Source of the DNA: Clostridia bacterium
GTDB taxonomy: Bacteria; Bacillota; Clostridia; Christensenellales; Aristaeellaceae
NCBI GenBank assembly: GCA_017429695.1
Contig: JAFROK010000033.1
Span: forward strand, 30,223-94,222
Direction of reading: 5' to 3'
Length of the DNA: 64,000 nucleotides
Shown here: piece after piece, positions 9,543 to 37,285 of the stretch
Numbering within the stretch: position 1 is the stretch's first letter
Layout: every line of letters begins with the position of its first letter
Program-made: the position numbers and the translations under genes
Notes under the pieces: generated by a model
Database searches by the model: none
The model's input: the letters and a program-made list of their open reading frames with translations, nothing else
What the model was told of the DNA's origin: nothing

Positions 9543-9621
9543 TCATTTTTTTGCCAAAACGCTTGAAAAATAACGGAATCCGTCCCTTTTCCGCATCATT
9601 TGCCCCTGCAAGGATTCCCCC

Positions 9622-9649: not shown

Positions 9650-9670
9650 CAATCCTTGTGTTTCCGTTGG

Positions 9671-12600
9671 TTAGTCGAAGCAGTCACCAACATGGTTAAT
9701 CATCACTTCAACACCCAACGCAGTCGGATATTCATCAAATTCCGTCAGCTTCGCTTTCGGTACTTTCGGCGGCTTATGTTCCTGCGGCGTCTCCGGCACC
9801 GGAATCACACGGTTCGTGAATGTCGTCAGGTTGCCTTCAATCGTAACTTCTGTCTGCCGGTATCCGGCTACCCGCGGTTCGCTCCAGGTATACGCCACCG
9901 GTTCCCCGTTCTGATATGCCGGCAGGTCACTGATTGTCGCACTCCAGCCGTTTGCCGCATTCAGTTCAACCCGCAGGCCATTGCTCAGCGTCACGTAAAT
10001 GTGTGCCGGCCTCATGCCCTGTTCATTTCTCCGGTCATCCCATACCTTCCGTACACTGACTTCGGTCGTTTCCGGAATATGGATGTTCGTCAGGATCGTC
10101 AGGCTGCCTTCCAGCGCAACACTCAGGGTATAACCCTCAACCTCTTCCTCTGTCCATTCATAGGCGATGATGCCACCGTCTTCACGTGCAACCGGCAGAT
10201 TGTCAATTGCTACGGCCCAAGCATTTTCTTCGCTCAGCACAACCGTCTGAACCTCGGTTCCGTCCGCCATCAATCTGACGCTGATCGTCTCCGGCCGGAT
10301 GCCGTCCTGATTATCCTGGTCTTCCCAGACCTTCGCCACTTCCAGCGTTTGAACCTCAGGTTCCGGTTCCGAAGTCGGTTCGGGTGTAGGCGTCGGTTCA
10401 GGAGTGGGAGTCGGCGTAGGAGTAGGCGTCGGCCTTACTTCCGGTGTAGGAGTCGGCGTAGGTTCAGGTGTCGGCGTCACTTCCGGCGTGGGTGTCGGAG
10501 TCGGTGCAGGCGTCGGCGTCACTTCCGATGTTGGTGTAGGTGTCGGTGTCGGTGTGGACTCCGGTGTAGGTGTCGGTGTAGGCGTCGGTGTGGGTGTTAG
10601 CGTAGGAGTCGGTGTCGGCGGAGGCATGGGAGGAGATGTCGGCTCAGGCGTATAGGCGTTTACAAATTCCGCCTTGCTCAGCGTTTCAGTAATCGTTCCC
10701 TTTTCACCTGTTGCAGTCGTTTCAAACGGTTCCTCCGGAGTTTCTTCAACCGCATAGACAGCACCTGTCGGCAGGCCATTCGCCGTAGCCTTTTCGCCAT
10801 CCTTCAGCGTAAATTCAGCTGTGCCGCGCACGAATTCCATATCGCCATACGTTCCGTTCACAGTCGTGTCGCTCAGTCTCACCGTGAAGCGGAACGCCCG
10901 TTCATGATGCTCTTTCGTTTCACTCACAACAATCTTGCTGACTTCCAGATCACCGGTCTTGCGCGTGTTCGTAAACTTTGCTTCAGCCTTTGTTTCGGAA
11001 ATCCTTCCGGTCTCTCCGGTAAATGCTGTTGTAAATTTCTCATCGGCGATTTCTTCAACCGTGTATGCAACACCGGCAGGCAGACCGGTCGCAATCTTGG
11101 TTTCACCATCTTTCAATGTAAATGTTGCAATGCCATCCTTAAAGGTAATATCACCAAAGATTCTGCCTTCAGGATGATCACTCGTTGTCCGGCCAATGGT
11201 TAAATCGCTCAGTGTCACGATGAATTCAAAAGTCTTATTGCTGAAATCTTCTGCCGTGCTGCTAACAACCGTCTTGCTGACTTCCAGTTCACCGGTTTCC
11301 TGTTTATTGATCAGTTTTGCGGATGCAATGGATGTTGTTGTAAAGGTTGACTCTTTCTCATCCAGCGTAAAGCGCGCATAACTGTCTTCCGGCAGAACCA
11401 CTTTCACTTCCTGTACAGTATACTCGATCCGTTCATAGTCATCGCCGGTTTTCTTGGTCTGGATCAGTTTTCCTTCCGTGTCTGTCCTGTATACAGGAAG
11501 CTTTGTCCACATCGCTGTCCATGCTTTTGTTTCACCATCTTCATCTGTTGTTCCGTCCAGAACAATGTCAGTCACATCAGTCCCGTCCAGATCCTTGGCG
11601 GTATTGCCGTCCGCCAGCAGATGAAGTGTCACTTTGGTCCCGTCCATGGCACTCTCACTGCCATCATAGTTCAGCCAGGTCTTATCAGCCGAAACAGTTG
11701 TCTCTTTGGAGAAGTTCTTGAAGATTGCTCTGGTTATATCAACCCTGTCACGAATACGGCGGTCATAATCTCCGAAGAAATCTCCGGCATTGAATTGCAG
11801 CTTCCCGTCATCATCAATAAGATATGTGCCTTTTTCTACATATTTTGTCCGGGCCGTATAGCATTCCTTGCCGTCTTTCACAGTCATGCCAATAAGCACA
11901 TCGAAGGCAAAGTAATTCTTTGTATCGGTAATAAGCTGTTCCTGTGATTCGGTAGTTTCGAGTACAAGGTATGTGAACGTTCTGCCCAAATCGTTCCGTG
12001 TCAGGTCATCCATCGTAATGGGAGTAAACTCAACCTTCGAGGGAATACCGTTCTTGGCATCTCTCACAATACCGGAACCGATCTTGGTATCCGTATATGT
12101 ATATTTGTAACACTCGCTTCCGAGAAGATATGTGCCGGTTCCTTCTGCGGTACTGTCTTCACGATAAACATCAAAGGTAAATGTTTCATTCTCGTGCATA
12201 TCGCGATTATAAAGGATCTTGCTTACATCAGGCGTCCAAACAGCACTGCCGTTTTGCGGAACATCACCAATGATAATTGTACCGTTTGAACCAATACCTC
12301 CGCCTCTGGAGTCTGAATGATTACCGGTTATTACCACACTGCCTGTAGTTGGGGCTCCCTCACCGGGATTCGCCTTTAACCGAACATCTCTGTCATTAAT
12401 CAGGGACAGTTCTTCATCGGAAGCAGGGCGTTTTGTTTCCAGGTCAATCCAATTATAAGGTGTTCCATTCCACATGTATGGAGATATTGATACTTTCATC
12501 GTGCCTGGAATTTTACCATAGCCTTCCCAATCCATAGTGCTGTAATACTCACAAGTAATGTCTGCATTATCGCCTGCGCGGTTGTTGTAGATAGCGGAAC

Positions 12601-21100: not shown

Positions 21101-21152
21101 CTTTTCTTCCCTCTTTTTTGTTCCGTATTCACTAACCATTGAAACGTAACCA

Positions 21153-21178: not shown

Positions 21179-21186
21179 GGTTGGAA

Positions 21187-23253
21187 TTACATGTTCGTTT
21201 CTGCCCCTACAACGCGTACCTCAACGCGCCAGTAATGTTGGTAGTTGCTCTCGTCCACCACAATATCCATCTGTTCCTCGGTGGCGCCTTCAACCTCAAT
21301 CCAGTTCACGTTGTCAACGCTTTCCATCCATTGCAGAGTGTATTCAAATCCTTCATACCCGCTCAGTTCGGCAGTGAAATGTGCTGTAGATCCGAATCCA
21401 GGATTCTCATCATCCCATGTCAGCACAACGTTAACGGCTCTATCTTCCGGCAGCTCGGGAATGATCTCTTCCTCGACTTCTCCGGCAGTCTCTTCAGTGA
21501 CCTCTTCAACAACCGCTTCCGTTGTCTCTTCGTTGGTCGTTTCTTCAGCAGCCTCTTCAGCCGTTTCTTCCGAATCTGTTGAAACATTCAGTTCAAACGT
21601 TTCAGACACCGTGCCATCCTGCATCACGAAGCGATATGCCCCTTCACCGGCTTCGACCATCACACTGTCGCCATAACCGATCTTTTTCCATTCGCCTTCT
21701 TCATTCAACGCCTGCCAGGTGCATACACCGGTCTGTTCTGGATCCGCGTTGGCGTTCAGCGTTACGATGCCTTCATTCTCTTCGGAAGCCGTCACCCACG
21801 CGAAGGTTGTTGTGGCTTCATCGGCCGCTTCTCCCACAGTTTCTTCGCCGGCGATTTCATCATCAGAAGTCTCTTCAGTGATCTCCTCATCAGCTGCATC
21901 TGTGGCTTCTTCTTTGATTTTTCCAGCCGTTACTTCTTCAGCAACTTCATCATCGTCCGCTTCCTTTTCAGCCGCTTCTTCGGTCGCTTCGTCAGTCACT
22001 TCTTCAGCAACTTCTTCATCGTCTGCTTTCTCTTCAACCGCTTCGTCAGCTGTTTCATCAATCGCTTCGGTTACTTCTTCAACAGTTTCTTCCGCAGCTA
22101 CTTCTTCAGCAGTTTCTTCGTTGTCCACATTTTCTTCGATTACTTCTTCAACTATTTCATCGGTTGCTTCCGCTATTACTTCTTCAGTTGCTTCTTTAAC
22201 TACTTCCTCGTTTTCTTCCACAGCTGCTTCTTCAGCTGCTTCTTCGGTATCCGTTTCTGTTTCAGTCTCTTCCGCCGACCGCTCGGTCCAGTTCATCCGG
22301 TATTCTTCGGAAATGATACCGTCTTCCAGCTGGAAGCGAATCAGGTTGTCAGCATTCTCTTCGGTGATGGTCAGCTCCAGCTTCTTGCCCTTGCCAATCT
22401 CCTGCCAGATGCCTTCTTCCCACTGCTCATCCCGGATTTCCCAGCGAACTTCACCGTTCAGTTCAGATTCAACCTTTGCCGTCAGGATAATCACATCGCC
22501 AATATAGGCTTCTTCTGTTTCTTCCCGAACGATCTTGGCCCGAACTGTTGCTGCTTCTTCAGCTTCTTCGGTTTCCGTGGTCTCTTCAGTGCTTTCGATT
22601 TCTTCAGTCTCTTCGGTTTCCTCAGCGACTTCAGTTTTTACTTTGTCTTCCTCACTGATCCTTTCAGAGGCCTCAATCAGCTCTTCAGTTACCTCAGGAA
22701 TGAAACCGGCCACAACTTCCGGATCAATGTATCCGGCGTCGTCATCCAGTTCCTGATATTCTGCTTCGTCTTCTGGAATCGTGTATCCTTCAAGCTCGTC
22801 GTATTCTTCTTCGGATTCCTCAGTTCCTTCGGTTTCAAGGCTCTCTTCAGATTCAAACGCCTGTGCATCTTCAGTCGTTTCTTCAGTTACTTCTTCAATC
22901 GCTGTTTCTGCCTGTTCTTCGGCGTTCTCATCAACTTTAGCACTGTCGGTATCTTCGGTCCCATCAGTTTCTTCGTTCGTTTCGGTTACTTCAGCAGTTT
23001 CAGTTCTTTCGGCTGTTTCTTCAACGACAACATCATCGCCGGCTGTCTCATTGGCTTCTTCAGCAATTTCGGTAGTCTCAACCGAAACTGTTTCTTCAGC
23101 CAGTTCCGTATTTTCCAAGTTCTCGGTTACGTTTGCTTCCGTATGATCTTCGAAGATTTCTTCCGCCTCTTCCGCAAAGGAAGCAAACGAAACGCAAACC
23201 AGCAGAATGCCGGCCAAGATCAGCGCGGCGATCCTCTTGATTCTCTTCGTCAT
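21187..23253 (-). CDS. Secreted Glu-rich protein with three Ig-like domains (partner of the LRR giant)
   Basis: 688 residues; function not recognised. The start is the ATG at 23253 (MTKRIKRIAALILAGILLVC, a signal peptide ending ...FASFAEE), with GGAGG eight bases upstream. Most of the chain is low-complexity Glu/Thr/Ala/Val sequence (repeated EETAEEVTEE-like), strongly acidic. Three short beta-rich, Ig-like stretches interrupt it: one around 250-330 (GDVIILTAKVESELNGEVRW), one around 480-560 (WVTASEENEGIVTLNANADP) and a C-terminal one ending ...YQHYWRVEVRVVGAETNM. The last has the WxxSxDxxxWxxIxGA pattern of bacterial Ig-like domains. It has no anchor. It sits directly upstream of a giant gene, as does its counterpart at 34973; probably co-transcribed. 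Confidence 0.8.
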   Translation of the reverse strand: MTKRIKRIAALILAGILLVCVSFASFAEEAEEIFEDHTEANVTENLENTELAEETVSVETTEIAEEANETAGDDVVVEETAERTETAEVTETNEETDGTEDTDSAKVDENAEEQAETAIEEVTEETTEDAQAFESEESLETEGTEESEEEYDELEGYTIPEDEAEYQELDDDAGYIDPEVVAGFIPEVTEELIEASERISEEDKVKTEVAEETEETEEIESTEETTETEEAEEAATVRAKIVREETEEAYIGDVIILTAKVESELNGEVRWEIRDEQWEEGIWQEIGKGKKLELTITEENADNLIRFQLEDGIISEEYRMNWTERSAEETETETDTEEAAEEAAVEENEEVVKEATEEVIAEATDEIVEEVIEENVDNEETAEEVAAEETVEEVTEAIDETADEAVEEKADDEEVAEEVTDEATEEAAEKEADDDEVAEEVTAGKIKEEATDAADEEITEETSDDEIAGEETVGEAADEATTTFAWVTASEENEGIVTLNANADPEQTGVCTWQALNEEGEWKKIGYGDSVMVEAGEGAYRFVMQDGTVSETFELNVSTDSEETAEEAAEETTNEETTEAVVEEVTEETAGEVEEEIIPELPEDRAVNVVLTWDDENPGFGSTAHFTAELSGYEGFEYTLQWMESVDNVNWIEVEGATEEQMDIVVDESNYQHYWRVEVRVVGAETNM

Positions 23254-23560: not shown

Positions 23561-23598
23561 AAAAAGCAGCAGGGACCAGCTCATTACAAGCCGGTCCC
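23561..23598 (-). terminator. Intrinsic terminator after the Cna-B giant gene
   Basis: Minus strand GGGACCGGCT-tgtaatg-AGCTGGTCCC (10-bp stem, one G-U) followed by TGCTGCTTTTTGG, 21 bases after the stop at 23619. It separates the two pairs into two transcription units. Confidence 0.8.
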
Positions 23599-23618
23599 CA
23601 AATAATCATAAGTCTTCT

Positions 23619-26600
23619 TTAGTCAAAGCAATCTCCAACATGATTGATATACACTTCAACACCCAGTGCAGTCGGGTATTCATCAAATATCGCATAGCTT
23701 CCGCCAGGCACCTTCGGATACTTATACCCTTCCGGAGGTTTCGGTACGCCTACCAGTTCATTCGTGAATGTGGTTACATTCCCATTCTGCTCTTTCGTTT
23801 TCAGTTTGTAACCGATAATCTCCTGCTCCGTCCAGGTATACTCAATTTCCTGTCCGCCAGCATACTTCGGCAGTCCGGTAACCGTTGCCTGCCATCCGTT
23901 CTGTGCGCTCAGCATCACATTGGTTCCATTGCTCAACGTCATCCGGATGCTGGTCGGCCGGATATTCGCAGCATTATTGTTGTCATCCCATTCCTTCCGA
24001 ACAACAACACTGGTCTCCTCCGGCTTATGAGTGTTCCGGATGGTATAGCCATTCACCTGGCTGGTATATCCGGGTACCGGATCTTCCGTCACGGAGTACC
24101 GGATCCGGTTGCCCCTGAATTCCTTCGGCAGGTCGGCAAACATATGCTGCCATCCGCCGGCTTCATTCAGCTGCACCGTTTCAATCACTTCACCGCCGGC
24201 ACAGAGATGTACGGTAATGCTGCCGGGGCGGATGCCATCCTGGTTATCATTGTCGACCCAGACCTTGCGCACCTGGATCTCAATCAGTTCAGGCTCCGTC
24301 TCCTCTTCGGGTTCCGGCTCATAGATATCGAACTTTTTCTGAATGACCAGTTTGCCACGTTCCAGCGTATTCGTAATCACATATCCGTTTTCTGCATTAC
24401 CCGAGATGGTCGCCTGGTATCCTTCCGGAATAGCAAGCTCTTCCACGGTATATGTGATTGCCTTTGCAGTGCCCGTTGTACCTGCCTTATTGATGTTCTT
24501 GTCCAGGTCTTCCCATACGTACTTCCAGCCGTTCGCCGCGTTCAGTGCAACCGGCTTTCCGACAGCCCGTCCATCGCCGTATAGCTGCACCTTAATTTCA
24601 GCCGGCCGGTCTTTACTGTTCGAATCATCCCAGGCCTTCCGCACGCTGACGCTGGTCTTTTCCGTCTTATGCTCGTTGGTGAATGTTGTCAGCGTGCCCC
24701 GGGTCACTGTTCCACTCAGCGTGTATCCGTTACCTGCCGCAGGCTCTTCCCAGGTATACACAATGTCCTTCAAGTCCTTGTCCACCATCGGCAGACCACG
24801 CAGTACGCACATCCAGCCGTGATCTGCGCTCAGGGTGACCGTTTTAACCTTTTCGCCGTTCGCCAGCAGGTTCATCCGGATACTTAGCGGACGCATGCCG
24901 TCCCGGTTATTGTCGTCCTTCCAGACCTTCTTCACCGCGACGGTTACTGTCTTTACCGCATCCCGCAGCAGAATGGTTCCATCCTCCCGGATGGCAACCG
25001 TAGATGCCGCGGTAATCCTACCTTCTTCATCAATGGAGAAGGTCGTATCCGTCGCAATGTCGTATCCATGCGGCGCTGTCACTTCATGCAGCGTATAGGT
25101 TTCCCCGGGTACCAGTCCTTCCAGTTTGTGCAGTTTGCCGCTTTCGCTGGTCCATTCGTCAAATACATTTCCGTCCTTGTCCAGGATCTGAATCTTGCAT
25201 CCGTTCAGTTCGTCCCCGTTATCAATATCCACCTTCTGCACTTCGACTGAGAATGCATAGTTCGTAAACACCAGTTCTTCCGGTTCCTTATCTGCTTTCG
25301 CAATAATCGTTCCGTCGCCATTGTCCATCAGTGTCACGACAATCGTTTCGATATGTGTATCATAGACTACGGTCTTATCTTCGCCCGTAACTTCAGAGAT
25401 GGTATAGGTGAACGGGCTGTTTGCAAGGTCATCCAGCGTATACGCAATCTCACTGAATACAATCGTGCCGTCTGCTGCGTTCTTCACGGTCTGCAGCGTC
25501 TTACCATCCTCATCCTTCAGTTCGAAGCTGAATTCGTCCGCTGTCAGGTCACGTCCTTCCATAACTTTCACGGCACCAGGCACATAGTGGCCTGCGGCGG
25601 TATAAGTGTTCACGAACTCAACGATCTTTGTCTCCGGTTTCTCGAAGTTACCGGCAATCGTACCGCTCGCATTGGTAGCCTGCGTGGTATATCCGTCGTA
25701 TGCTTCTTCCGTCACGGTATACCCCAGTCCGTTCGGCAGACCCAGAGCAGTCTTCTCTTCGCCGTCCTTCAGGGTAAATTCAGCCACGCCCTTTTCAAAG
25801 GTCATTTCGCCGTATGCGCCGGTGATCGTGTTATCCGCCAACATGACCTTAAACACAAATTCCTTCGCCGGTTCAGCCACACTCTTGGCACTCACCGTCT
25901 TCTTCACGGTCAGGTTGCCGTTGTCATACCTGTTGGTGAACTTCAGCGGTTCATTATTGGTGCTGTTGGTGATCTTCAGCTTACCGGTGCCTTCTTCCGT
26001 TACCCGCACCCGGACAACTTTGTCCGTATCGTTCTGCACATACGGAATGTTCCCGGTCTCCTTAATGGTATACACATATTCTTTTCCGGCATGTGCCAGT
26101 TCATATTGGATCGTTCCGAAGTCCAGATCTACACTGCCACCGGATGTCGGTTTCACAGTGATGGATGTCTTTTCAGGCATCGGTGAATCCGCAGGATCCG
26201 CTGTCACCGTAAAGGTCCATTCGTCCCTTTCCTTAAACTCACGTCCGGCGATTACCTTGGTTCCCTTCAGTGCGGTCTCACCGTCAGCGTTGTAGGTGTT
26301 CGTGAAGACCACAGGCGTTGTCACGCTGCTGTTCTCAATCTTAAGCGTGCCGTCACCATTGTCAGTGATCTTCACCGTTACTGTCTTTGCGACGTCATTC
26401 GTCACACCGTCCACTGTACCGGTTTCGGTAATGGTGTAGGTGTATGTCTTGCTAACATCCTTGTTTGTGAATTCGATCTTTCCGAAGTCAACTTCAATAG
26501 CCTTGCCACTGGCAGGTTCGATCGTCTCTGTCGTCTTCTCAGGCATCGGCGTACCATTGGCAGCTGTCACTGAGAAGGTCCACTTGTCTCCGGCCTTGAA

Positions 26601-29600
26601 ATCACGTCCAGTAATGGTCTTCTGGGCCTTCAGCGGTGTGGAGTCAATCATGTAGTTGTTTGTAAACGCAGCGGTGCCAGCTCCGTCGATCTCACTTTCA
26701 AGCTTCTTGCCTGCAACAACTGTTAAAATACGGCCGTTATTGCCAACAAGTAAATCAGCCGTTTCTTCTTCTACCCAGTATATTCCGGCCTCCAATTCAT
26801 CAGACAGTTCAGTCTTTGCAACATTGTCGCCAGCATTAAAAGCAATGCTAATAGTCTGCAGCGCAGGTTCAACCTTAGCACCGTTCGACATCGCATATAC
26901 CTTGAAAGTATATGTATTATCCACAAGGCTTTCATTTGCAGTGGTCGGGGCAGCACCGTTCACCTGGATGGTCTTGGTAACCTTCAGCTTGCCATAGTCT
27001 GCATATGTGTTCTTTACTGTTACAGTCTGGCTGGTTACGACTGTGTTGTTAACCTTGTTGCCTAACACTGCCGTAGGCACCGTCGTTCCGTACGATCCGT
27101 CTCCCAACTTGTATGTCGCAATAAACCCGGTCCCGCTTGTTTCGCTGACCGTGTAACTGCCCGCGGTCAGTTTGTGTATCGTGACTGTTCCATCGCCGTT
27201 CGCTCCGTTGCTTGCGCTTACCTTGAATTTCACTCCATTAGTAACTGCCTCGAACGTTCCGTCAACTTCTCCATCTACGTCAGCTGCCGTAATGTTCATC
27301 GCCGTCGCAGATGTTACTACGATCTCATACTCTGCACTCGCCGGTGCCATGTCGCCTTCCAGCGTCTTTACAACAACCAGGTCATATTCTTCTTTGTTGT
27401 TTGTGTACGTTGCAGCCGCCGCTCCCGTAGGCGTATTGTTCCCAGCAACAACTGTTAGCGTTACTGTGCGATTGCTGGTATTCGATGTTCCACTCTTTCC
27501 ACCAGCAATATTCGTCAGGACAAATCCTGCAACAGCTTCTTCTGTTACAACATAGTCTCCTGCCTCAAGATTGGAAACAATCGCGTCAGTGCCATTTGTG
27601 TAGCTTTCTATTGCCGCCAGGCCCGCCTTAGTGTCTGCTACTTTGTATCCGCTCGCAGTTCCGTTCGTGACCTTGATCTGCACATATTTCGTTACTTGCG
27701 TTGTTGCTGATGTCGGCCCGACTACACTAAAGATAAACTCTCCATTGACAGAACTCTTGTTCGTATCACTGCCATTCAGCGTTACGGCCTTCGTGATCTT
27801 CAGGCTGCCAGCCTGCTCTGTGTAGTTGTTTGTGAAGTCGACTGTGCCGTTCGGATTCTTACTCGACAGTTGAATTGTTGTGTTCGGTGTATCGCCTGTC
27901 TCAGTCTTTGTTCCCGCAGGTGTTGCCGTGATGGTCGTCGTCCGGGTGTATCCGCCAACGTTCGCATTCGATTCGGTGACCGTATATATCACGCCAGGCT
28001 TTACATTGTTATCTGCCGTCGTCAGAATCCACTTGTCATCCGTCATATCCGCCCAGGTCTTGGTCAGCGTTCCCGTCAAACCAGTTCCACTTACTGCGAA
28101 CGTGATCTTGTTCTTTTCAGTCGCGTCAATCGTAGCACCGGTAAAGCTCTTCGTGATCTCCAGCTGATATTTTTCGTATGTGTTTGTAATCTCGATGGTT
28201 TTCTCTGTACTGGTTGCACTTAGTGTGGCTGTCGCGGAAGTTGCCGTTGTTCCATCCACCTTGATCGAGCTCGTATGCTCATAGTTCCCGATCGTAGTGT
28301 TTGACTCCGTCACAGTGTAATCACCAAGCGGAACATTGTTCAGCGTCAGCGTGTATACGCCGTCCGTTCCCTTCACAAACTTCGGTTCCGTTGTGTCGTT
28401 GAGTGCCTTGTTTGTGATTGTTGTGAAGCCTGTCGGTCCGGTAATCGTGAACGTCACAGCGCCTTTCTGCGCATCCGTCAGATCGCTCGCGGCCGTTCCG
28501 TCGAACGTCTTCGTCACAACCAGCTTGCCCTTCTGCTCGTTCGTAAACTTCGCTTCGGTTTCGCCGTCTGTGTTCGTCGCCGCCGTCTTGTTCACTGCGA
28601 ATCCATTCGTGTCTGTAACCGCAACTGTAAAGTAATGCTTGCTCTGGTCATACTTGATATGGTTCGAAGCGCTTACGCCGTTGCTGTCCAGATCATTCGG
28701 AATATCCGTCTCTTCAATCTTGAAGTAGAACGTCTTGCCGATGTCGTTCTGATCGAAATGGAGCGTGCTGAATGTCACCGACCCGGCTGTTCCGGAACCT
28801 CCGGTCAGTTCCTTTGTTTCAGGCGTAGATAGTCTCACATATCCTGTCGGAATTTCTCCCGTCCCGTCCACAGAACCCACCTGGGTCAGCTTGAATTTGA
28901 GTGTCTTGCCCGTCAGGTCACCGCCCATGAACGTCTTCGATGCGGTAAAATTCACGTCTCCCGCTCCCGCAAACGTATTGTTTACATTCGCCGACGCGGT
29001 CTGCACCGTGCGCACCTGCGTTTCCGAATTCACCTGGTTTGCCGGGATCGTTCCGCCCAGGCCGGATGTCGCGCCCTGCGAATAGCCAGTGGGAATATTC
29101 ACTTCTGTAATTGAATATCCTGTTCCCGCCGGCAGCCCTGTGATCGTCAGCGTCTCATTATGCTTGAGGTCGATTCCGGTTATCTTTGTCGTACCATCTG
29201 TCGTATTCTTTGTATAGGTAAGTGTCTTCGAAGTGGTGCCTACTGCAGCCGGATAACTGTCCGCAAGCGTGACGTTCGCCGGCGGTGTCAGTATGATCTC
29301 AAATTCAAACTCCGTCGTAGTGTCTGTCTGCGGCTTGCCGCTCGCTGTCTTCTTCAGGCTCAGGTTACCTGTATCAATGTTGTTCGTGAACCTTGCTGTC
29401 GGCACAGTAACTGTGTCACCCCTGCTGACTGTCACCGTCGCCACATTGTTTGCTATGGTACCTGTTCCTGTCGTAAATTCAGTCTTCAGCAGCGACGTAC
29501 CGTTCGAACGTCCGGTCTCGGTGATCGTGTAAGTATCGGCTTTCAGGTTTGCAACCGTAACCGTACCGTCATTTGCAATGCTTACATCCGAATCGGTTCC

Positions 29601-32600
29601 GTTCAGGCTTGCTGTTCCTACGTTGTTAAACACAACCTGAATCGTTTTTTCTACCTTGTCAGTCAGTGTTGTGCTCTCAATCTTGAAGGTGTATGTCCCT
29701 GCCACCAATGCCTTTTCAACATTGGTGTTCGGTGTCGTACCGTTCACGGTCACATTCTTCTTGAACTTCAGAGAACCAGTCAATATCGTGTTCGTGATCG
29801 TACCGCCACTTAATGCATACTCTATTGTCTTGCCTTCGCCGTTGTTATATGCAGGCGCTGCGTATCCTTCAACTGCAGTTTCTTCGACTCTGTATTCGTA
29901 TTCAATTCCGTCCGAATTGTACTTTGGCAGATTTGAATAGGTGTACGTATTATCATTCCATGCAAACTGGATCGGAGAAGCTACTCGTACCACTTCCCAA
30001 ACAGAGTCATCTGCCACTGGCTTCGCAGTCCGTTTAAGTGTTAACGTAATCTCCTGTGCATTATTGTGGACTTTATCGCCATCATTCAACCATTGTTTTG
30101 TTCCATCAACCGTCACAGTCTTGCGCTGGTTAACAAACTGAATAGCTTCTGCTGAATTTGTTGATGATATTTCAGATAAATAATTTGGATCAATCCTGTA
30201 TCTATTTACCGTTTTTGTTTTTGGTATATTTGATTCTTCAAATTGTAATTTATTATCACTGTCAAGATCGTATACTGTAGCAACATACTGGGGTGATTCA
30301 GCAATAGATGAAGCATTCAAGCCTTCAGCATTTAGTTTGTAATACGTTTCAGTTTCCGTTGTTTTAGCGGTTGATCCTGTTATATTGACTCCAACAACAG
30401 TTTTTACAATATATTGTGTGGTATCAATGTCATATTCCTCAGTATTTTTGTTTTCACTCCGCCCGGTCTCATAAATGCGATAATAGTGTTCCCCCTCATC
30501 GGCAATTGTATATTGTAATTCAGGGAAAACAATCCTACCTCCGATATTTTCTGCTGTTTTTCGATCGCTTGTTTTCCATCCACCATGTTCATTGTCCCAC
30601 TCTTCCATAACAAAGGTAAACTTCTCTCTTTCAAGTGGGATTGTATTTTCTTCACTGCCAGGCAGATGCATCCGTTTTTTTGCTTCAAAGCCTATTTCTG
30701 CGCCAGTGTATGTCCAGCTTCTGTTCTGATAGTAGAAATGCCATTCTGCTCTGGAAATAAAAGTTCCGCTGGTCAAAATTGTACCTGCGCCGTCTTGTTG
30801 AGTGACTTTACTGGCATTCGGGGCAAGAATCAAGCCCGATGCTGTGACCAAGTCTAGCGTTTGAGCCTGGTATGCATTAAACGTAATGTGACGCATAATG
30901 TCCTGATCCCAAGCTTTTGCGGCATCAGACAAACCGTTGCTGTTTGCAAATTCACTCGTTTGTGTTGATGTTGACCTCAGTTTTGAATTTGTGTTTTGAG
31001 GATCATATATATTGGCTACCATTTTCCCGATTTTTACGTTTGTGCCAGGAACATTAAACACAATGCTTTGGCCAGGCAGCTTATTAATCTCCCACCCTGT
31101 CTCCGTCATTTTATCCGCGATATTCTTGCAATCCACATAAATCGTGATTCCATCCGGAAAATCAGTAACATCCAGAGCAAGATTGCCATTATTCACCTTA
31201 TCAGGTGTGACTGTCTTTTGGGCAGCGTATGCTACGGATTGGCTCTTCCCATACTCAATCAAATCATCTACGTAGTTATTAATTGACGTCTGAGATGCGG
31301 AAACCAGATGGTAGCGGCCAGGAGCGGCATTAATTCTTGACTTCATTTCATTATGAATTTTGTTGTCAATATCTGCCTGCTGCATGAAAATGTACAGGTT
31401 GTTATTTTCCGATTCAATCCACAAAGGAGTTTCCGGATCTACGCTACCAATGAAGAATGGAATATCGCTTCCGCCAGCACCATTCACACTATTGTTAGAA
31501 TTATCGTAAAGTTGCTTAACCGCATAATTAGTTTCTGTATGACCATATTGTTCATAGCGATTTGCTATAACACCATATTCCGCCGCTGTCCCTATTATGT
31601 CATGAGGGCCTACAGCAGTATCATAATGAGCCTCTGTCAATGTTATATAGTGTGTAATTGTTGATATATTGCCACTGACTGCAACATTCTTGTCGAGGAA
31701 AGCACCACCTTCATCAATTAAATCTGTGTCGTAATCTACATCATAGTATTTGCTGCCAATCTTTATCGGATGCCCTTCATTCACTATTCTGCCATTTTGA
31801 GTCAATCTCAAAGTATAAGATTCGTTGCCGGTAATGAGATTTGGATTATTTTCAACAGATGCTTTTTCATTCCAATAGAACACCGGGCTTTCCCCAGTCT
31901 GATCTTCCAGAACGTACGTAATAACTGTATTATCTCCAGTTGTCGTTACATTCGTTGTCCCATTGTTTCCGTAACTCGTTCCTGAAGAATTTGTTGATAA
32001 AACCGCATTGTTCAGTTTATCTGACACGTTACTGGCATGTTTTACTTCTTCATTCAGGTGTATACTCGTATCCTCAATTGCTCCTGCTGAAGTCGGTATA
32101 ATAACTTGCACTCGATATATTTTCTTTGTTGATTTGTATAAGCCAAGTTGTGTCTGGGTTTTAATGATCTTATTTTCATTATCCAGTGTAGCTTGTGCAT
32201 GGTACGTCCCAGCATCGGTACTTCTCCAGTTCTTGTTATACCAGAAATCAAAGCCGGGAATGCTATCTGTTCCGTTATTCTCAGCCTCCTGAATACTCGT
32301 AGGAAATGCTGTCCCCTCTTTCAGTTTGTACATTCGAACAGAACTGGTATACACTGTAGGATCATAATGAAGCGAGCCACCATCAATATCTATTTCATTA
32401 TCATCAACAAGCTGGAAAAGATCTGTTACATTAATTGTTGTAGTGTAACTGCCGTCAGTATTTTGGGTTTCTATATTTGCAGAAACGATCTTGTAACCTA
32501 CTGTTTTCCCGTTATTGATCTTCTTCAGCTTCACAAGATAATAGAGCGTTCCGCTCAGGTTGGATTCAACATGTTGCGGCGGATTTTCGCTGTCTGATAT

Positions 32601-34922
32601 GTCAGTGCGTTCATTGTAGAAGTTCACCGTAATGTCGTGAGGTTTCCCGTCATCCTTTTGTTTGGTAAAAGTGGTTGTTAGGATTGTTTGTCCATCCTCG
32701 CCCGTTGATATTACGGAAGAAGTCGAATACAGATCTTTTGTTAGGTCACAATTCTGGTTCTCTGCTCCTACAGTATTCTCGTTGTAACGAACAACGCCGA
32801 CCACAGGTTGCAATCCAAGCGCCTTTGCAATCGTATCCGCCCCGGTTACCACCTGCGTGGTCAATGTTTCTTCACCGGAATAGTAGTGAGGAACTGAATC
32901 AACAGAACCCGCGCCTCCGTTTTGACCTGGAGTGTACAGATAGAATGATATTGGATCTGAAACAGGAGATGGATTCGAACTATTATCTACATTTTGCAAT
33001 GCATAATATATCTGGCCGTGTGAAACCATCTTGATCAGCAGCTTATAATCGCCAGGTATATTCTCTGAAATACTAATATTCTCTGAACTCTTGAATTCAG
33101 TCTTCAGTTTGAAATCCGGCACAGTAGTTAGCAGCAGCGTTCCCGTTCCGTTTGCTGTGGTACTAGAGAACATGTATTTGTTAATTACTTTTCCACTGCC
33201 ATATCTTGTGCCGTTAATGACACTCTGGTAAGTAACAGCGCCATCACTCGGTAATGTTTTAAGCAGCACAAGTTCGTTTTCAATGGTATCGTTGGACTGA
33301 TATACGGTTGTGTTGGTTTTTGCGGTCTGATTTCTGACTGTTGATGGATCACTAACCAACACACTGTTGTAATCGCTGTAATTGTAGAAAGTTGGAATCT
33401 CCTGATTCGATACATGCGTAATGGTATCTGAATTGTTAGAAAGTTCCTTGACATAATAGTATTTGGTGCCATCCGATTTTGTTAAAGCGGAAAGCAGGTA
33501 CCAGTATCCCTTATACCCTTCCCCTTCTGTATCGAATGTAATATCATCACCGCTGGATGTTGAAAGACTATATTTGTAGGGTACAGACGGCGTCAAAGTA
33601 TATGTGGTTTTGCCCGTAGTTTGTGTTACAGAAACAATATAGTTCTGCAGAACGCCGCCTTCCCCGATGATGGTGCCGCCTGTGATTATTCCTTTATCTA
33701 TGCTATCGGTTCCGTTTTGTTCAACAGTTATATCTTTCCCAAACTTGATTTCAATGGTTTTGTCGCTTGTATATGCCTGCTTATTGGGTGTATCGTTACC
33801 CCGTTCAAATGAAGTGAAGTTGATTGTCTGAGAGGATTTCCCATTCAGATCAACGTCAATCTTTTTATAATACCGAACCGTATTGCCAGCTTGATTTTCT
33901 GCATCTGTTCCAGCATATACAGAGTACCCTGTCTCCAGTCCGGAAACAGCACTCGCATTAGAAGTCTTTATTTCAACTTCATATGTTTGTAGTTTTGTTG
34001 CATTGATGTTGTAATGACCGTCACTGTCAATTTTCCAATTGTATAATCCAAATTCCTGGTCGCTGTTATTCAAGACGACATTCGTCATTTTCGGATCACT
34101 ATACCACTTGTCCTTAATACTCTTCAAATCAAGCTCGTCCGACCCGGTGTATTTTACAATTGTAAATCCATATCCGGTTTCAGTCGGACTTAACTGTACT
34201 GTTTGTTTATCTTCGTTCGTAAAATTACTGATTGTAACAACCGATCGTCCGGGAGTAGGTGTAATCTCAGCCATCAAATCCTTATTATTTCCGTAATTCG
34301 TTGTAACCACAAGATAATGTCGATCGCTTAACGACGGGTTCGTGTCTCCGGTTGTACCGTCTATATCTTTAAAATTGATGGTTACGCTTGGATTTGGCAT
34401 TGTTATTGTAAGTGTATTATCGCTTATCCCAATTAAGTATTTCTGATCAATTAACTGGCCATTATAAAGCTGCTTGTCGTTTTCAAGTGCGGAAATAGTA
34501 TCCCAAGATGGCCTGTTATTTGAATCATTTGTTTTTAAGATAAATATTTTTATACTATCTTTGTCTACAGAGGAATAAGTTGTATTGTTTTGGGTATAAT
34601 TGTCTTGAATTTGAAATTTGTTTAAATTAATTATCCCTTCCCCGCTTCCTTGACAGAGAAAAGCACTATAAACCTCTTGCTTAGCGACTTCACTTGTTTT
34701 CGATCCTATTCCTTTCGCCACAAACCAGTAATGTTCATTGTTTAATGATGTAATGGTTTCCTGAGTAGATTTGAAAAAAAAGCAAGGACAATTATTGTTA
34801 GAATTATTTATAGTTATACTCAGGTGAATCGGATCTGCCAGACCCGGAGCAGGAGTAATCAATGTCATCATTTGAAGAATGATCAGAAATATCGCTGTAA
34901 TCCTTTGCTGATACTGTTTCAT
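23619..34922 (-). CDS. Giant secreted Cna-B/isopeptide-domain surface protein with novel C-terminal tag
   Basis: 3,767 residues. Start ATG at 34922 (MKQYQQRITAIFLIILQMMT, a signal peptide), with GGAGG nine bases upstream; an in-frame ATG at 34976 overlapping the previous stop is less likely because it would bury the signal peptide. Residues 35-1400 match no family I recognise: beta-rich, Thr/Asn/Ser-rich, with AT-rich coding DNA. From about 1410 (KFTFVMEEWDN) follow some 19 Spy0128/Cna-B-type domains, each opening with a (V/L)xKxxxG-like strand (for example LVVTKTFDG, LEITKSFTG, LKAQKTITGRDF) whose Lys suits isopeptide bonds. The last two ([32 protein letters not shown]), the Pro/Lys linker and the ending [22 protein letters not shown] match the other giant. 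No LPXTG. Inferred stalk/adhesin. Confidence 0.87.
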   Translation of the reverse strand: MKQYQQRITAIFLIILQMMTLITPAPGLADPIHLSITINNSNNNCPCFFFKSTQETITSLNNEHYWFVAKGIGSKTSEVAKQEVYSAFLCQGSGEGIINLNKFQIQDNYTQNNTTYSSVDKDSIKIFILKTNDSNNRPSWDTISALENDKQLYNGQLIDQKYLIGISDNTLTITMPNPSVTINFKDIDGTTGDTNPSLSDRHYLVVTTNYGNNKDLMAEITPTPGRSVVTISNFTNEDKQTVQLSPTETGYGFTIVKYTGSDELDLKSIKDKWYSDPKMTNVVLNNSDQEFGLYNWKIDSDGHYNINATKLQTYEVEIKTSNASAVSGLETGYSVYAGTDAENQAGNTVRYYKKIDVDLNGKSSQTINFTSFERGNDTPNKQAYTSDKTIEIKFGKDITVEQNGTDSIDKGIITGGTIIGEGGVLQNYIVSVTQTTGKTTYTLTPSVPYKYSLSTSSGDDITFDTEGEGYKGYWYLLSALTKSDGTKYYYVKELSNNSDTITHVSNQEIPTFYNYSDYNSVLVSDPSTVRNQTAKTNTTVYQSNDTIENELVLLKTLPSDGAVTYQSVINGTRYGSGKVINKYMFSSTTANGTGTLLLTTVPDFKLKTEFKSSENISISENIPGDYKLLIKMVSHGQIYYALQNVDNSSNPSPVSDPISFYLYTPGQNGGAGSVDSVPHYYSGEETLTTQVVTGADTIAKALGLQPVVGVVRYNENTVGAENQNCDLTKDLYSTSSVISTGEDGQTILTTTFTKQKDDGKPHDITVNFYNERTDISDSENPPQHVESNLSGTLYYLVKLKKINNGKTVGYKIVSANIETQNTDGSYTTTINVTDLFQLVDDNEIDIDGGSLHYDPTVYTSSVRMYKLKEGTAFPTSIQEAENNGTDSIPGFDFWYNKNWRSTDAGTYHAQATLDNENKIIKTQTQLGLYKSTKKIYRVQVIIPTSAGAIEDTSIHLNEEVKHASNVSDKLNNAVLSTNSSGTSYGNNGTTNVTTTGDNTVITYVLEDQTGESPVFYWNEKASVENNPNLITGNESYTLRLTQNGRIVNEGHPIKIGSKYYDVDYDTDLIDEGGAFLDKNVAVSGNISTITHYITLTEAHYDTAVGPHDIIGTAAEYGVIANRYEQYGHTETNYAVKQLYDNSNNSVNGAGGSDIPFFIGSVDPETPLWIESENNNLYIFMQQADIDNKIHNEMKSRINAAPGRYHLVSASQTSINNYVDDLIEYGKSQSVAYAAQKTVTPDKVNNGNLALDVTDFPDGITIYVDCKNIADKMTETGWEINKLPGQSIVFNVPGTNVKIGKMVANIYDPQNTNSKLRSTSTQTSEFANSNGLSDAAKAWDQDIMRHITFNAYQAQTLDLVTASGLILAPNASKVTQQDGAGTILTSGTFISRAEWHFYYQNRSWTYTGAEIGFEAKKRMHLPGSEENTIPLEREKFTFVMEEWDNEHGGWKTSDRKTAENIGGRIVFPELQYTIADEGEHYYRIYETGRSENKNTEEYDIDTTQYIVKTVVGVNITGSTAKTTETETYYKLNAEGLNASSIAESPQYVATVYDLDSDNKLQFEESNIPKTKTVNRYRIDPNYLSEISSTNSAEAIQFVNQRKTVTVDGTKQWLNDGDKVHNNAQEITLTLKRTAKPVADDSVWEVVRVASPIQFAWNDNTYTYSNLPKYNSDGIEYEYRVEETAVEGYAAPAYNNGEGKTIEYALSGGTITNTILTGSLKFKKNVTVNGTTPNTNVEKALVAGTYTFKIESTTLTDKVEKTIQVVFNNVGTASLNGTDSDVSIANDGTVTVANLKADTYTITETGRSNGTSLLKTEFTTGTGTIANNVATVTVSRGDTVTVPTARFTNNIDTGNLSLKKTASGKPQTDTTTEFEFEIILTPPANVTLADSYPAAVGTTSKTLTYTKNTTDGTTKITGIDLKHNETLTITGLPAGTGYSITEVNIPTGYSQGATSGLGGTIPANQVNSETQVRTVQTASANVNNTFAGAGDVNFTASKTFMGGDLTGKTLKFKLTQVGSVDGTGEIPTGYVRLSTPETKELTGGSGTAGSVTFSTLHFDQNDIGKTFYFKIEETDIPNDLDSNGVSASNHIKYDQSKHYFTVAVTDTNGFAVNKTAATNTDGETEAKFTNEQKGKLVVTKTFDGTAASDLTDAQKGAVTFTITGPTGFTTITNKALNDTTEPKFVKGTDGVYTLTLNNVPLGDYTVTESNTTIGNYEHTSSIKVDGTTATSATATLSATSTEKTIEITNTYEKYQLEITKSFTGATIDATEKNKITFAVSGTGLTGTLTKTWADMTDDKWILTTADNNVKPGVIYTVTESNANVGGYTRTTTITATPAGTKTETGDTPNTTIQLSSKNPNGTVDFTNNYTEQAGSLKITKAVTLNGSDTNKSSVNGEFIFSVVGPTSATTQVTKYVQIKVTNGTASGYKVADTKAGLAAIESYTNGTDAIVSNLEAGDYVVTEEAVAGFVLTNIAGGKSGTSNTSNRTVTLTVVAGNNTPTGAAAATYTNNKEEYDLVVVKTLEGDMAPASAEYEIVVTSATAMNITAADVDGEVDGTFEAVTNGVKFKVSASNGANGDGTVTIHKLTAGSYTVSETSGTGFIATYKLGDGSYGTTVPTAVLGNKVNNTVVTSQTVTVKNTYADYGKLKVTKTIQVNGAAPTTANESLVDNTYTFKVYAMSNGAKVEPALQTISIAFNAGDNVAKTELSDELEAGIYWVEEETADLLVGNNGRILTVVAGKKLESEIDGAGTAAFTNNYMIDSTPLKAQKTITGRDFKAGDKWTFSVTAANGTPMPEKTTETIEPASGKAIEVDFGKIEFTNKDVSKTYTYTITETGTVDGVTNDVAKTVTVKITDNGDGTLKIENSSVTTPVVFTNTYNADGETALKGTKVIAGREFKERDEWTFTVTADPADSPMPEKTSITVKPTSGGSVDLDFGTIQYELAHAGKEYVYTIKETGNIPYVQNDTDKVVRVRVTEEGTGKLKITNSTNNEPLKFTNRYDNGNLTVKKTVSAKSVAEPAKEFVFKVMLADNTITGAYGEMTFEKGVAEFTLKDGEEKTALGLPNGLGYTVTEEAYDGYTTQATNASGTIAGNFEKPETKIVEFVNTYTAAGHYVPGAVKVMEGRDLTADEFSFELKDEDGKTLQTVKNAADGTIVFSEIAYTLDDLANSPFTYTISEVTGEDKTVVYDTHIETIVVTLMDNGDGTIIAKADKEPEELVFTNYAFSVEVQKVDIDNGDELNGCKIQILDKDGNVFDEWTSESGKLHKLEGLVPGETYTLHEVTAPHGYDIATDTTFSIDEEGRITAASTVAIREDGTILLRDAVKTVTVAVKKVWKDDNNRDGMRPLSIRMNLLANGEKVKTVTLSADHGWMCVLRGLPMVDKDLKDIVYTWEEPAAGNGYTLSGTVTRGTLTTFTNEHKTEKTSVSVRKAWDDSNSKDRPAEIKVQLYGDGRAVGKPVALNAANGWKYVWEDLDKNINKAGTTGTAKAITYTVEELAIPEGYQATISGNAENGYVITNTLERGKLVIQKKFDIYEPEPEEETEPELIEIQVRKVWVDNDNQDGIRPGSITVHLCAGGEVIETVQLNEAGGWQHMFADLPKEFRGNRIRYSVTEDPVPGYTSQVNGYTIRNTHKPEETSVVVRKEWDDNNNAANIRPTSIRMTLSNGTNVMLSAQNGWQATVTGLPKYAGGQEIEYTWTEQEIIGYKLKTKEQNGNVTTFTNELVGVPKPPEGYKYPKVPGGSYAIFDEYPTALGVEVYINHVGDCFD

Positions 34923-34972
34923 CCTATTGTTCCTCCATTCTATGTCATGTGTCTCAAACTCAGAATCAGCTT

Positions 34973-37285
34973 TCATTCTGAATCACTCAATGAAATGATA
35001 AACTTCCATGTGTAGCTAAAATTTTCCTTACTTAACGGATATGTATATGTCAGACCGTCAGCATTCTCAATATCAATAAAGTCAACTCCGTCAATAGAAT
35101 ATTGCCATTTGCATGTATATTCGTCATCTTCTTTGAAATCAACAAGTTCGACTGTAATAGTAATCGGCGTTCCGAAATCGATAAACCCACCCATGGATGT
35201 CAGTGTGGATGAGATCCTCAGACTTCTGGCTAGTGGCTCTTCTGTCTCTTCATCTGCAATTTCTTCAGCAGACTTTTCTTCTGCTTGTTCATTCAGAGCC
35301 TTATCGTTGGAGTTTATATTCTTTTCATATGCATCTTTCTGCTCTTCATCCGTGTCCGAATCCTCATTTTCATCTGCAGATTCTGCTTGTTCTTTCTCTT
35401 TCTGAAGAACAATCAAAAGATCGTTCCATTTTACATATTGATTTGTTTCATTAGTAAAACTATAAGCTTCTGCATACTCTTTTTCTTCTGTCGGTTTTAC
35501 CCAAAGCTCTGTTCCAAATGGTAAATGCTCAGTTTCCTCATATGTTTCAATAGTTGTAATCAGGCTTGTCCCATTTTCCCTTAAGACCTGAACTTTGTAG
35601 TAACCCATTGTCAACATAGTCTGGTCATCTGGAATTTCGACAGGTTTTTCTTTCTCTTCCTGTTTGGTCTTGTAATCTGTTACAGCTTCGTTATCCGTCT
35701 CAGATTTTTCAATTACTGTCTGTTTTTCTTCCTTCAAAGAATCTTCTGCTTTAGTTTTCTTTTCAGGTTCTGTTCCATCAGCAGTCTCTACTTGTGCAGT
35801 GTTATCCGCTGAGATGTCTTTCTTTTCTTCCGCTAGGAATTCTTCAGAAGGTTCTTCATTTGCCGGTTTCTCTTCAGAAACCTCTATAGCAGGTTCTTCC
35901 TCGGTCAAAGCTTCTTCAGTTTGTCCGTTCTCCGGATCTGCTGCTTGTTCAATATCCGCAGGTCCTTTTTCAGAAATCTCTCCCGGTGTCTCATATACTT
36001 CTGTAGATTCTTCTTCTACCGATTCCTCAGCAGGTGCTTCTGTTTCTTCTTTTCCTATTTCTGCTTTGTTGTCTTCGGTTCCTACAGATTGTTCCGTTTC
36101 CTCAATTTCTTTCTTTTCATCCTGTTTCGGTGTTTCTTCCTTGATCAGTTGAACGGCGATTATTGTAAGATCAGCATCAAAGCAGGATGTTATTCTGATA
36201 TCATAATCCTGGTTCTTTTCCGTATATGCTGTGAATGTATAGATCACATCAGTACTTTCCGGATCTTCATTTTCAACCCAAGTCAGTTCCTTCTGACGGT
36301 CGGCGACGAAAATTTTCAGGCCGGTTTCTTTTCCGTCTTTGCTGACAGGAAGCGGAGCATCACCGATATGCTGCTGTTTGAGGATCAGGGTAAAAATGAG
36401 ATTGTAGTTGTATTTGCTGGTATAGGTAATTACGTATTCCTCGCCTGCCTTCAAGGTGCCTTCTATGCCTTTTTTGCCAAGATACAGTTTATTCAGATCA
36501 GAAATCAGTTCTTCAGGCTGATCGGATTCAACCGGTGTTTCCGGCTCTTCTGTTTTTCCCTGTTCTTCCGTTATATCCTGTTCTGCCTGTTCTTCCGGTT
36601 CTTTTGCTTCTGCCGTCTGATCCGTTGTTTCGGGTTCTTCCGGTTCTGCAGTCGATTCAGCCAGCAGCTGCTCTTCTTCCGTGTTATCCTTCCGGGTCTC
36701 TTCCGGAATCTCTTCCCGGGTTGCCTCCGGTTGAGATTCCTTTGGCTGTTCTTCTTCAGACTTCAGTTCATTTTCAATCTGAACTGATTCAGAAGCAAAT
36801 CCATTCCCTTCATTTTCGGGTTTAACATGTTCTTTTTCCGAATCTGAAGGCAGGTCAGAATCCGGAAGCTGGTTTTCTTCGGCTTCCGTAGGTTCAAGTT
36901 CTTCTTCTGTTGCTTTGGGTTCTTCCTCTGCTCCAGAATCTTCCTCTATTCCGGAATCTTCCTTTACTTCTGGCTTGTCCATTTCTTCTGGCACTACCGG
37001 AGTTTCGTTTCCTTCGTCTTCCGGTTCTGCCATCTGCTTGGATTCCTCTGCCGGTTCGGATTCTTCCTTTTGCCCGGGGTCAGCCTCTGCCTGAGGCTCT
37101 TCCTTTACCTCAGGTTCTTCTTCCGTCGTGAATTCTCCCTGCTGCGTTTCGAGCGTGAGCAGTTCAGCCTGCTCTTCCGGCTGCTCCTTCGGAATATCTC
37201 CATCCGCAAAAACTGCTGTAAACGAAGTCAGTAACAGTGCCAGTGTGCACAATGTGACAAGAAGTTTTCTGAATCCGCTTTTCAT
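34973..37285 (-). CDS. Secreted Glu-rich protein with Ig-like C-terminal domain (partner of the Cna-B giant)
   Basis: 770 residues; no family recognised. It begins MKSGFRKLLVTLCTLALLLT (signal peptide, cleavage near AVFADG) with GGAGG eight bases upstream. Long Glu/Pro/Ser/Thr-rich acidic tracts (EEPEVKEEPQAEADPG-like) alternate with three folded-looking stretches: about 255-385 (LYLGKKGIEGTLKAGEEYVI), about 570-645 (MGYYKVQVLRENGTSLITTI) and a C-terminal Ig-like domain (CKWQYSIDGVDFIDIENADG) ending ITSLSDSE-like. Its architecture matches the 688-residue protein at 21187 although the sequences are far diverged. The next gene starts 50 nt later, so the pair is an operon with a promoter at 37379-37407. 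Confidence 0.82.
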   Translation of the reverse strand: MKSGFRKLLVTLCTLALLLTSFTAVFADGDIPKEQPEEQAELLTLETQQGEFTTEEEPEVKEEPQAEADPGQKEESEPAEESKQMAEPEDEGNETPVVPEEMDKPEVKEDSGIEEDSGAEEEPKATEEELEPTEAEENQLPDSDLPSDSEKEHVKPENEGNGFASESVQIENELKSEEEQPKESQPEATREEIPEETRKDNTEEEQLLAESTAEPEEPETTDQTAEAKEPEEQAEQDITEEQGKTEEPETPVESDQPEELISDLNKLYLGKKGIEGTLKAGEEYVITYTSKYNYNLIFTLILKQQHIGDAPLPVSKDGKETGLKIFVADRQKELTWVENEDPESTDVIYTFTAYTEKNQDYDIRITSCFDADLTIIAVQLIKEETPKQDEKKEIEETEQSVGTEDNKAEIGKEETEAPAEESVEEESTEVYETPGEISEKGPADIEQAADPENGQTEEALTEEEPAIEVSEEKPANEEPSEEFLAEEKKDISADNTAQVETADGTEPEKKTKAEDSLKEEKQTVIEKSETDNEAVTDYKTKQEEKEKPVEIPDDQTMLTMGYYKVQVLRENGTSLITTIETYEETEHLPFGTELWVKPTEEKEYAEAYSFTNETNQYVKWNDLLIVLQKEKEQAESADENEDSDTDEEQKDAYEKNINSNDKALNEQAEEKSAEEIADEETEEPLARSLRISSTLTSMGGFIDFGTPITITVELVDFKEDDEYTCKWQYSIDGVDFIDIENADGLTYTYPLSKENFSYTWKFIISLSDSE

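Follow-up and report, generated by a model that had tools for sequence, protein, structure and literature searches.

A conserved C-terminal tag and an orphan OppA-like gene as a candidate docking module of giant secreted proteins in a family of gut Clostridia

Introduction

How might very large exported proteins be held at a Gram-positive cell surface if they end in a short, conserved tag and not in a sorting signal? This question is raised by a 64,000-nucleotide (nt) stretch of DNA (the window) from a Clostridia bacterium of the GTDB family Aristaeellaceae (assembly GCA_017429695.1, contig JAFROK010000033.1, positions 30,223 to 94,222). Two gene pairs are located within it on the minus strand, each consisting of a gene for an acidic secreted protein (P0004, P0002) and, directly behind it, a gene for a giant protein (P0003, P0001), and both giants terminate in the same tag. 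A preliminary description of the window considered the pairs to be a duplicated module in which the acidic protein is the dedicated partner of its giant. Beyond the view of that description, the tag has another partner in related genomes, an orphan OppA-like gene that frequently follows it. As a tentative best explanation, we propose that these genes represent a module of one family of gut Clostridia in which the tag may serve as a sortase-independent docking signal and the orphan OppA-like protein as its receptor. In the open-access literature, no description of the tag or of the module was found, in agreement with the preliminary description, which knew of no system with this layout; given that scope, absence is no proof.

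Two acidic/giant gene pairs with a common C-terminal tag

All four open reading frames (ORFs) were confirmed where they had initially been placed, and the two pairs share the same design:

9671..21100, minus strand: tagged giant P0001, 3809 amino acids (aa) from the start MKKSFRRR; BspA-type leucine-rich repeat (LRR_5) head, two DUF7601 and two Cna_B stretches
9674..9739, minus strand: C-terminal tag of P0001, 22 residues
9674..10342, minus strand: shared C-terminal block of P0001, comprising two Cna-B domains, linker and tag
21187..23253, minus strand: acidic secreted protein P0002, 688 aa, net charge about -204; C-terminal immunoglobulin (Ig)-like domain
21190..21489, minus strand: C-terminal Ig-like domain of P0002, from the family alignment, with weak profile matches to RemA, EndoS and antibody Ig domains
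23619..34922, minus strand: tagged giant P0003, 3767 aa from the start MKQYQQRI; mixed Cna_B, FctA, DUF7601 and SpaA array behind a head without a Pfam match above the cut-off
23622..23687, minus strand: C-terminal tag of P0003, 22 residues, of low confidence in the structure model
23622..24275, minus strand: shared C-terminal block of P0003, comprising two Cna-B domains, linker and tag
34973..37285, minus strand: acidic secreted protein P0004, 770 aa, net charge -152; C-terminal Ig-like domain
34976..35275, minus strand: C-terminal Ig-like domain of P0004, from the family alignment

The intergenic gaps measure 86 nt (P0002-P0001) and 50 nt (P0004-P0003) with starts chosen to give signal peptides; starts, signal peptides, lipoboxes and membrane segments were called by simple script heuristics throughout. 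Glu accounts for 28% of P0002 and 22% of P0004, and both proteins show the traits of their family, i.e., a signal peptide, high Glu content and the C-terminal Ig-like domain. Eight LRR_5 stretches were identified in P0001. The previously reported “about 19 Cna-B domains” of P0003 proved to be a loose count, as Pfam (E <= 0.1) assigns five Cna_B, four FctA, four DUF7601 and one SpaA stretch. The observation that both giants end in the same two Cna-B domains and tag holds: they are 50% identical across the last 223 residues of P0001, including a common tag of 17 letters, and their likeness is chiefly C-terminal, with weaker matches among the other stalk modules.

The acidic proteins P0002 and P0004 show no BLAST similarity to each other and are related only via an alignment of the C-terminal Ig-like domain of approximately 95 residues. 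They are therefore considered members of an old family, and a recent duplication of the pair was rejected.

Distribution and conservation of the tag

Three copies of the tag were found in the window genome, at the ends of the two giants and of a 631-residue protein on contig C40 (the letters C, G and L denote contigs, genomes and loci, respectively). It is present in 27 of 200 sampled genomes of the family, and within a phylum sample of 398 genomes it was found only in the window genome. A search for INHVGDC[FY] across one genome per species (84,980 species) yielded only 85 stretches, 82 of which encode relatives of the giants' C-terminus, which exceeds coincidence; among the 80 matches listed, the sources are Clostridia and the hosts, where titled, ruminants. 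In 92 distinct NHVGD-type C-termini, mean conservation amounts to 4.2 bits for the last nine positions, five of which (-8 to -4) are invariant through the search pattern, to 2.9 bits for the preceding thirteen positions and to 1.3 bits for the linker. A Cys is found in 91 of these 92 tags at a position where the pattern permitted C, S or T. Many tags deviate from the standard form, and variants with Ser, Thr or Leu for this Cys (GETIE, GESYE, GETYE, GELAE and NHVGDTFD) occur at the same position and beside the same neighbour; paralogous units bear their own variants. The tags form the end of the protein, with neither a hydrophobic stretch nor a basic tail behind the motif. A structure model of the P0003 C-terminus resolves the Cna-B domain well but leaves the tag region poorly defined, with a predicted local distance difference test (pLDDT) value of about 46-54. 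A 10,303-codon open frame on contig C6 of G119 (L004, L059) ends in the tag and extends to the contig start.

An orphan OppA-like gene behind the tag

Among 81 tagged ORFs in L068-L147, 50 are followed by a gene for a secreted OppA-like protein (Pfam SBP_bac_5). In the corresponding subfamily, comprising 88 distinct genes from loci up to L227, 78 are located directly behind a tag-like C-terminus, defined by a five-residue pattern, and 77 of these 78 are not followed by a permease-like ORF in the available flank, as judged by hydrophobic segments. Among the ten other genes, three (L117, L143, L196) in fact lie behind a tag overlooked by the script, one (L149) is truncated at the edge of its locus, three (L202, L203, L225) are without a tag, and three (L189, L191, L192) are linked to a permease. 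Tag and subfamily (E <= 1e-120) also co-occur: of the 200 family genomes, 27 exhibit the former, 26 the latter and 24 both, with a chance expectation of 3.5. In two of the three tag-only genomes, G150 and G196, an OppA-like gene adjoins the tagged gene on the contigs of L147 and L097, whereas the third, G026, has none so near; the subfamily without a detected tag is limited to G054 and G198.

Outside the family, the arrangement is a different one. A sample of the class contained eight genomes with matches, and all seven loci that were read exhibit a downstream permease-like gene, a Cys at the signal-peptide end (both read by eye) and no tag. Among the 78 tag-linked genes, by contrast, the count of hydrophobic segments gave one permease-like neighbour. 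Two matches outside the family in a sample of the order show the same features as the seven loci, bringing the permease-linked, tagless relatives examined outside the family to nine. Both situations are found within the window genome, where three OppA-like genes are tag-linked without a permease (C40, C54, C1), three have a permease-like neighbour (one on C20, two on C52) and one, on C28, has neither. The two pairs of the window lack this third gene, while the genome encodes OppA-like genes elsewhere.

The similarity between tags tracks the similarity between the OppA-like proteins behind them (Mantel r 0.70, n=63; for variants, r 0.80, n=20, with one spurious row). In a Foldseek comparison, the first match to the OppA-like fold is Bacillus subtilis AppA in complex with a nonapeptide (E 2e-25). 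Most of the closest solved structures bind peptides or nickel, and by sequence the nearest proteins are OppA and Lmo0135. Tag-linked OppA-like proteins often carry an acidic tail in which aromatic or hydrophobic residues stand beside Asp or Glu, e.g., EEFFEE and DEGFFD (L042, L056, L148 and others).

The acidic gene family and its giants

The order of acidic gene and giant is conserved. Distinct acidic-domain genes were counted in the window, L032-L061 and L068-L178, i.e., in loci picked by tag or acidic-domain matches and not at random, and were deduplicated on their last 60 residues. Of the 52 genes obtained, 46 precede a signal-peptide ORF within 250 nt (38 of these ORFs reach at least 600 aa, and the sequence stops within the other 8). 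For the 43 genes with at least 20% Asp+Glu, the figure is 41, with 34 before an ORF of at least 600 aa, 7 cut and 2 neither. The six acidic genes not followed in this way are the first genes of L044, L111, L160 and L164, the gene of L057, which is followed by a sortase unit, and that of L168. In L044, L111, L160 and L164, a second, tandem acidic-family gene comes next and then the signal-peptide ORF, which is cut by the contig end in L160; one acidic-looking gene (L101) was missed by the profile. As a control, 78 of 900 other genes precede a signal-peptide ORF of at least 600 aa. According to our reading, 53 of these 78 are tagged genes, most of them then followed by an OppA-like gene, and 4 belong to the acidic family, leaving 21 of 843. 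Within the order sample, the acidic domain was detected in 18 of 297 genomes, 15 of which belong to the family.

Thirteen giants behind acidic genes have a visible stop, and nine of them carry the tag or one of its variants at the end (both giants of the window and those of L048, L137, L142, L159, L165, L170 and L173). The remaining four (L088, L153, L171, L175) are taken to be frameshifted because related coding sequence follows. Full units of acidic gene, tagged giant and OppA-like gene were found in L137, L159, L165 and L173. In G132 and G032 they span neighbouring stretches, as they do in G025 and G091, where the giants are fragmented; frame continuity across stretches is assumed. In the genus of the window, a common arrangement starts with the core tagged protein and an OppA-like gene, continues with one or two others and ends with acidic gene and giant. 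Contig C40 of the window genome exhibits this arrangement, and the contig end truncates the third acidic-giant pair located there. The preliminary description proposed checking for an acidic gene upstream of tagged giants in other genomes; the order was found to be conserved, but tagged genes without an upstream acidic gene do exist, namely those of “core” proteins of approximately 640 residues, the giant of G196 and two tandem giants of G026 (L051-L052). Many other giants run off their contigs, so that the upstream gene falls outside the assembled sequence. Acidic genes were also found to lead class C sortase units with a small or mid-sized tagged protein (L057, L218).

The acidic proteins range from 314 to 1262 aa in length (27 proteins, 4 of which match a loose lipobox pattern). 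No transmembrane segment past the signal peptide was detected in these acidic proteins, in the visible parts of 27 giants or in 48 OppA-like proteins. Both acidic proteins and giants are net negative. The Ig-like assignment of the acidic C-terminal domain is based on weak profile matches; Pfam returned seven families for this domain, each weakly and each in 1 of 24 members. For ten giant heads, Pfam matches were obtained in three only, all to stalk-type or MBG modules.

Exchange of giant heads

An orthologous locus, recognized by eye from the same flanking gene, is common to G066, G132, G163 and G185. Between G185 and G066, the acidic proteins share two stretches of 91% and 87% identity, whereas the heads of their giants match over only 54 and 30 residues. 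Conversely, the G185 head is 50-58% identical over approximately 730 aa to the heads of two G091 giants, which are located beside another acidic type. Near-identical acidic genes beside unrelated heads indicate that the heads move while the acidic gene stays. The dedicated partnership suggested in the preliminary description is thus upheld as a conserved upstream neighbourhood but not as a strict pairing with a particular giant. Several giants are interrupted in these genomes: the tagged giants of G091 (L034) are broken near 7011, 8308, 9281, 10578 and 13819 by frameshifts that affect one repeat after another at the same position, with no homopolymer run involved and in a near-complete assembly, which may be artefact or biology, and those of G132, G163 and G185 are likewise broken.

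Comparison with known surface-protein systems

The giants resemble Cna-B/SpaA-type pilins and MSCRAMM-like adhesins (microbial surface components recognizing adhesive matrix molecules) in their Sec signal and in prealbumin-like Cna_B, FctA and SpaA modules that pass the Pfam threshold, and some tagged units have pilus-type neighbours. They differ from these pilins in that an LPxTG motif, a membrane segment and a basic tail are replaced by a fixed short tag, and by the frequent OppA-like gene behind tagged ORFs. A search of the ends of the window giants for an LPxTG-like motif, a hydrophobic segment or a basic tail found none of them. With BspA-type LRR proteins, P0001 shares its LRR_5 array; here, however, the LRR region is one of several heads and the C-terminus is the shared tag.

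A likeness to class C sortase pilus loci is given by sortase homologues, which in some relatives adjoin a tagged gene, beside small or mid-sized tagged proteins (L054-L057, L218, L227), and by a signal peptidase S26 in L055 and L056. Five of the seven sortase homologues compared are, however, without the active-site His and Cys, and the tagged subunit has no sorting signal. These degenerate homologues are located beside tagged genes in L218 (7687-8646), L227 (6807-7778), L054, L055 and L056. A cognate sortase was looked for in the window genome (88% complete): it encodes three sortases, none of them on the contig of the window (C30).

The tag-linked OppA-like proteins resemble OppA/AppA-type binding proteins in SBP_bac_5 sequence and fold and differ from them by the absence of a permease-like neighbour, usually of a lipobox, and, in many, by the acidic C-terminal tail.

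Genomic surroundings of the pairs

Three further elements delimit the pairs, each recognized as a consensus match only:

23570..23600, minus strand: terminator-like stem of 14 pairs after P0003, separating the two pairs
37379..37407, minus strand: promoter-like site upstream of the P0004-P0003 pair
37606..37631, minus strand: terminator-like stem and T run at the boundary between a type IV pilus-like operon and the first pair

Promoters and terminators were called by pattern matching, and terminators in the region are no more numerous than in shuffled sequences. Based on these flanking stems and the promoter-like site, each acidic/giant pair is probably its own transcription unit.

The adjacent type IV pilus-like operon (37651-42817) includes genes for a PilT-type ATPase (T2SSE, 37651) and a PilC-type protein (T2SSF, 40853), four small proteins whose N-termini contain hydrophobic segments, and a transglutaminase-core protein (41966-42817). 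A similar gene order precedes acidic-giant pairs in G091 (L155; by eye). The operon was rejected as a partner of the pairs since, despite these similar neighbours in G091, other tagged giants are located elsewhere. Elsewhere in the window, a 961-aa ORF (4017-6902), which we take to encode a protein resembling translation initiation factor IF-2, contains a 30-base tandem repeat (6070-6320).

Discussion

The gene order, the conserved tag and the exchange of heads above it can be accommodated, with more caution than the docking proposal itself, in a model of sortase-independent display: the tag would be captured by a receptor derived from an OppA-like transporter component, tag and receptor would be specific for each paralogous unit, and an Ig-tipped polyanion would constitute a third subunit. 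Acidic protein, giant and OppA-like protein would all be exported by Sec. The exchangeable head of the giant (LRR or other) would face outward on a stalk of Cna-B type modules, and the C-terminal tag would replace the sortase signal. An OppA-like protein, encoded in the same unit or elsewhere in the genome, may bind the tag in its peptide cleft and thereby hold the giant at the cell wall or hand it over to the wall; the linkage between the tag and the orphan gene supports such a contact. The co-exported acidic protein might act as a hydrated spacer of polyanionic character whose binding partner would be a constant component of the unit and not one head. Such a system would allow free exchange of heads, since a fit would be needed only among stalk, tag and receptor. 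The contact between tag and receptor, the place of attachment and the role of the acidic protein are what we infer here.

Several observations weigh against this model. In none of the 48 OppA-like proteins beside an INHVGDC tag was a lipobox pattern found, which bears on how a receptor would be retained; those of L057, L217 and L218 appear by eye to carry one. When the last 30 residues of a tagged protein were tethered ahead of the neighbouring OppA-like protein and modelled as a single chain, the OppA-like part folded well, with a predicted template modelling score (pTM) of 0.80, but the tag stayed undefined and did not dock (pLDDT 25-32, lower than for the tag region on its own giant, 46-54). 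As the tether removes the free C-terminus, this negative docking model is weak and not decisive. The correlation between tag and OppA-like similarity could result from joint descent of neighbouring genes. In G026, which encodes two tagged giants, no OppA-like gene reached E <= 1e-120, and only a variant-tag unit was found. The acidic domain is commoner than the tag (97 versus 27 of 200 family genomes), and in L175 (G094, 1834-11794), a giant in pieces behind an acidic gene has a last ORF (8144-11794) that ends in an ordinary LPxTG; the acidic gene is consequently not tied to the tag in every case and may precede a sortase-type giant. The role of the acidic protein is a proposal based only on its composition and position. 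Moreover, comparison of the G163 and G185 versions of the core locus shows joint divergence of the acidic C-terminal domain (39% identity over 54 aa) and the giant's head (28% over 361 aa), in spite of an acidic N-terminal part that is 83% identical over 626 aa, a pattern with which contact between head and acidic protein would be compatible.

Other modes of attachment have to be considered. The tag might be a worn or altered sortase signal at which a class C sortase acts, at (T/V)PLG, so that tagged proteins would be pilus subunits or bases. Such a role would fit the intact class C sortase encoded in the tagged units L057 and L218, the signal peptidases S26 and small tagged proteins of such pilus-type units, the apparent LPxTG end of the L175 giant and the three sortases of the window genome. 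We nevertheless consider it quite unlikely: the tags end the protein without hydrophobic stretch or basic tail, the homologues beside the tagged gene in L054, L055, L056, L218 (second gene) and L227 have lost the catalytic His and Cys and score under the class C cut-off, and none of the three window-genome sortases is on the window's contig, two of them being flanked by ordinary PKTGD-type substrates. The near-constant Cys of NHVGD-type tags could form a covalent link, by disulfide or thioester, between tagged proteins or to the wall, which is very unlikely in view of the equivalent tags with Ser, Thr or Leu; a chemistry based on Cys only was rejected for these variants. Just as improbable is a role in peptide signalling, with the orphan OppA-like protein as sensor or scavenger of a peptide released from the tag. 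The nearest folds of this protein do bind free peptides, but 77 of the 78 genes lack a permease-like ORF behind them in the available flank, and the identity of INHVGDCFD across many species of the family makes it ill-suited to a species-specific signal. An outer-membrane system was rejected, as the window genome, at 88% completeness, contains no Omp85 match.

For the acidic protein, two alternatives to the spacer were weighed. A dedicated chaperone-like or shielding partner of its own giant would be in line with the conserved order and short gaps in 46 of 52 genes and with the joint divergence at the G163/G185 core locus; similarity of acidic C-termini also correlates with that of giant heads (Mantel r 0.41, n=25), a value confounded by shared descent. 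This role appears unlikely, since almost identical acidic genes accompany unrelated heads, since a similar head is also accompanied by an acidic gene of another type, and since acidic genes lead the sortase-type units L057 and L218 without an adjacent giant. Its electrostatic form, the shielding of a basic giant, was rejected as unlikely because the giants themselves are net negative. Alternatively, the acidic protein might merely be co-expressed with the giant, as an independent surface polyanion serving as cation buffer or hydrated coat without any contact. The lack of a post-signal membrane segment, the wide range in length and the exchangeable heads are consistent with this possibility, which we regard as less improbable though still doubtful, as the Ig-like domain is kept while the Glu-rich part is not, suggesting a binding function.

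At present, the genes described here are filed among Gram-positive surface-protein loci; the step from tag to receptor, if shown, would make them a new kind of display system. If the docking model is correct, it would provide Gram-positive bacteria with a route other than sortase for holding very large surface proteins, with exchangeable heads on a fixed base, and it would explain what many orphan OppA-like genes, and a class of unannotated giants in gut Clostridia, are for.

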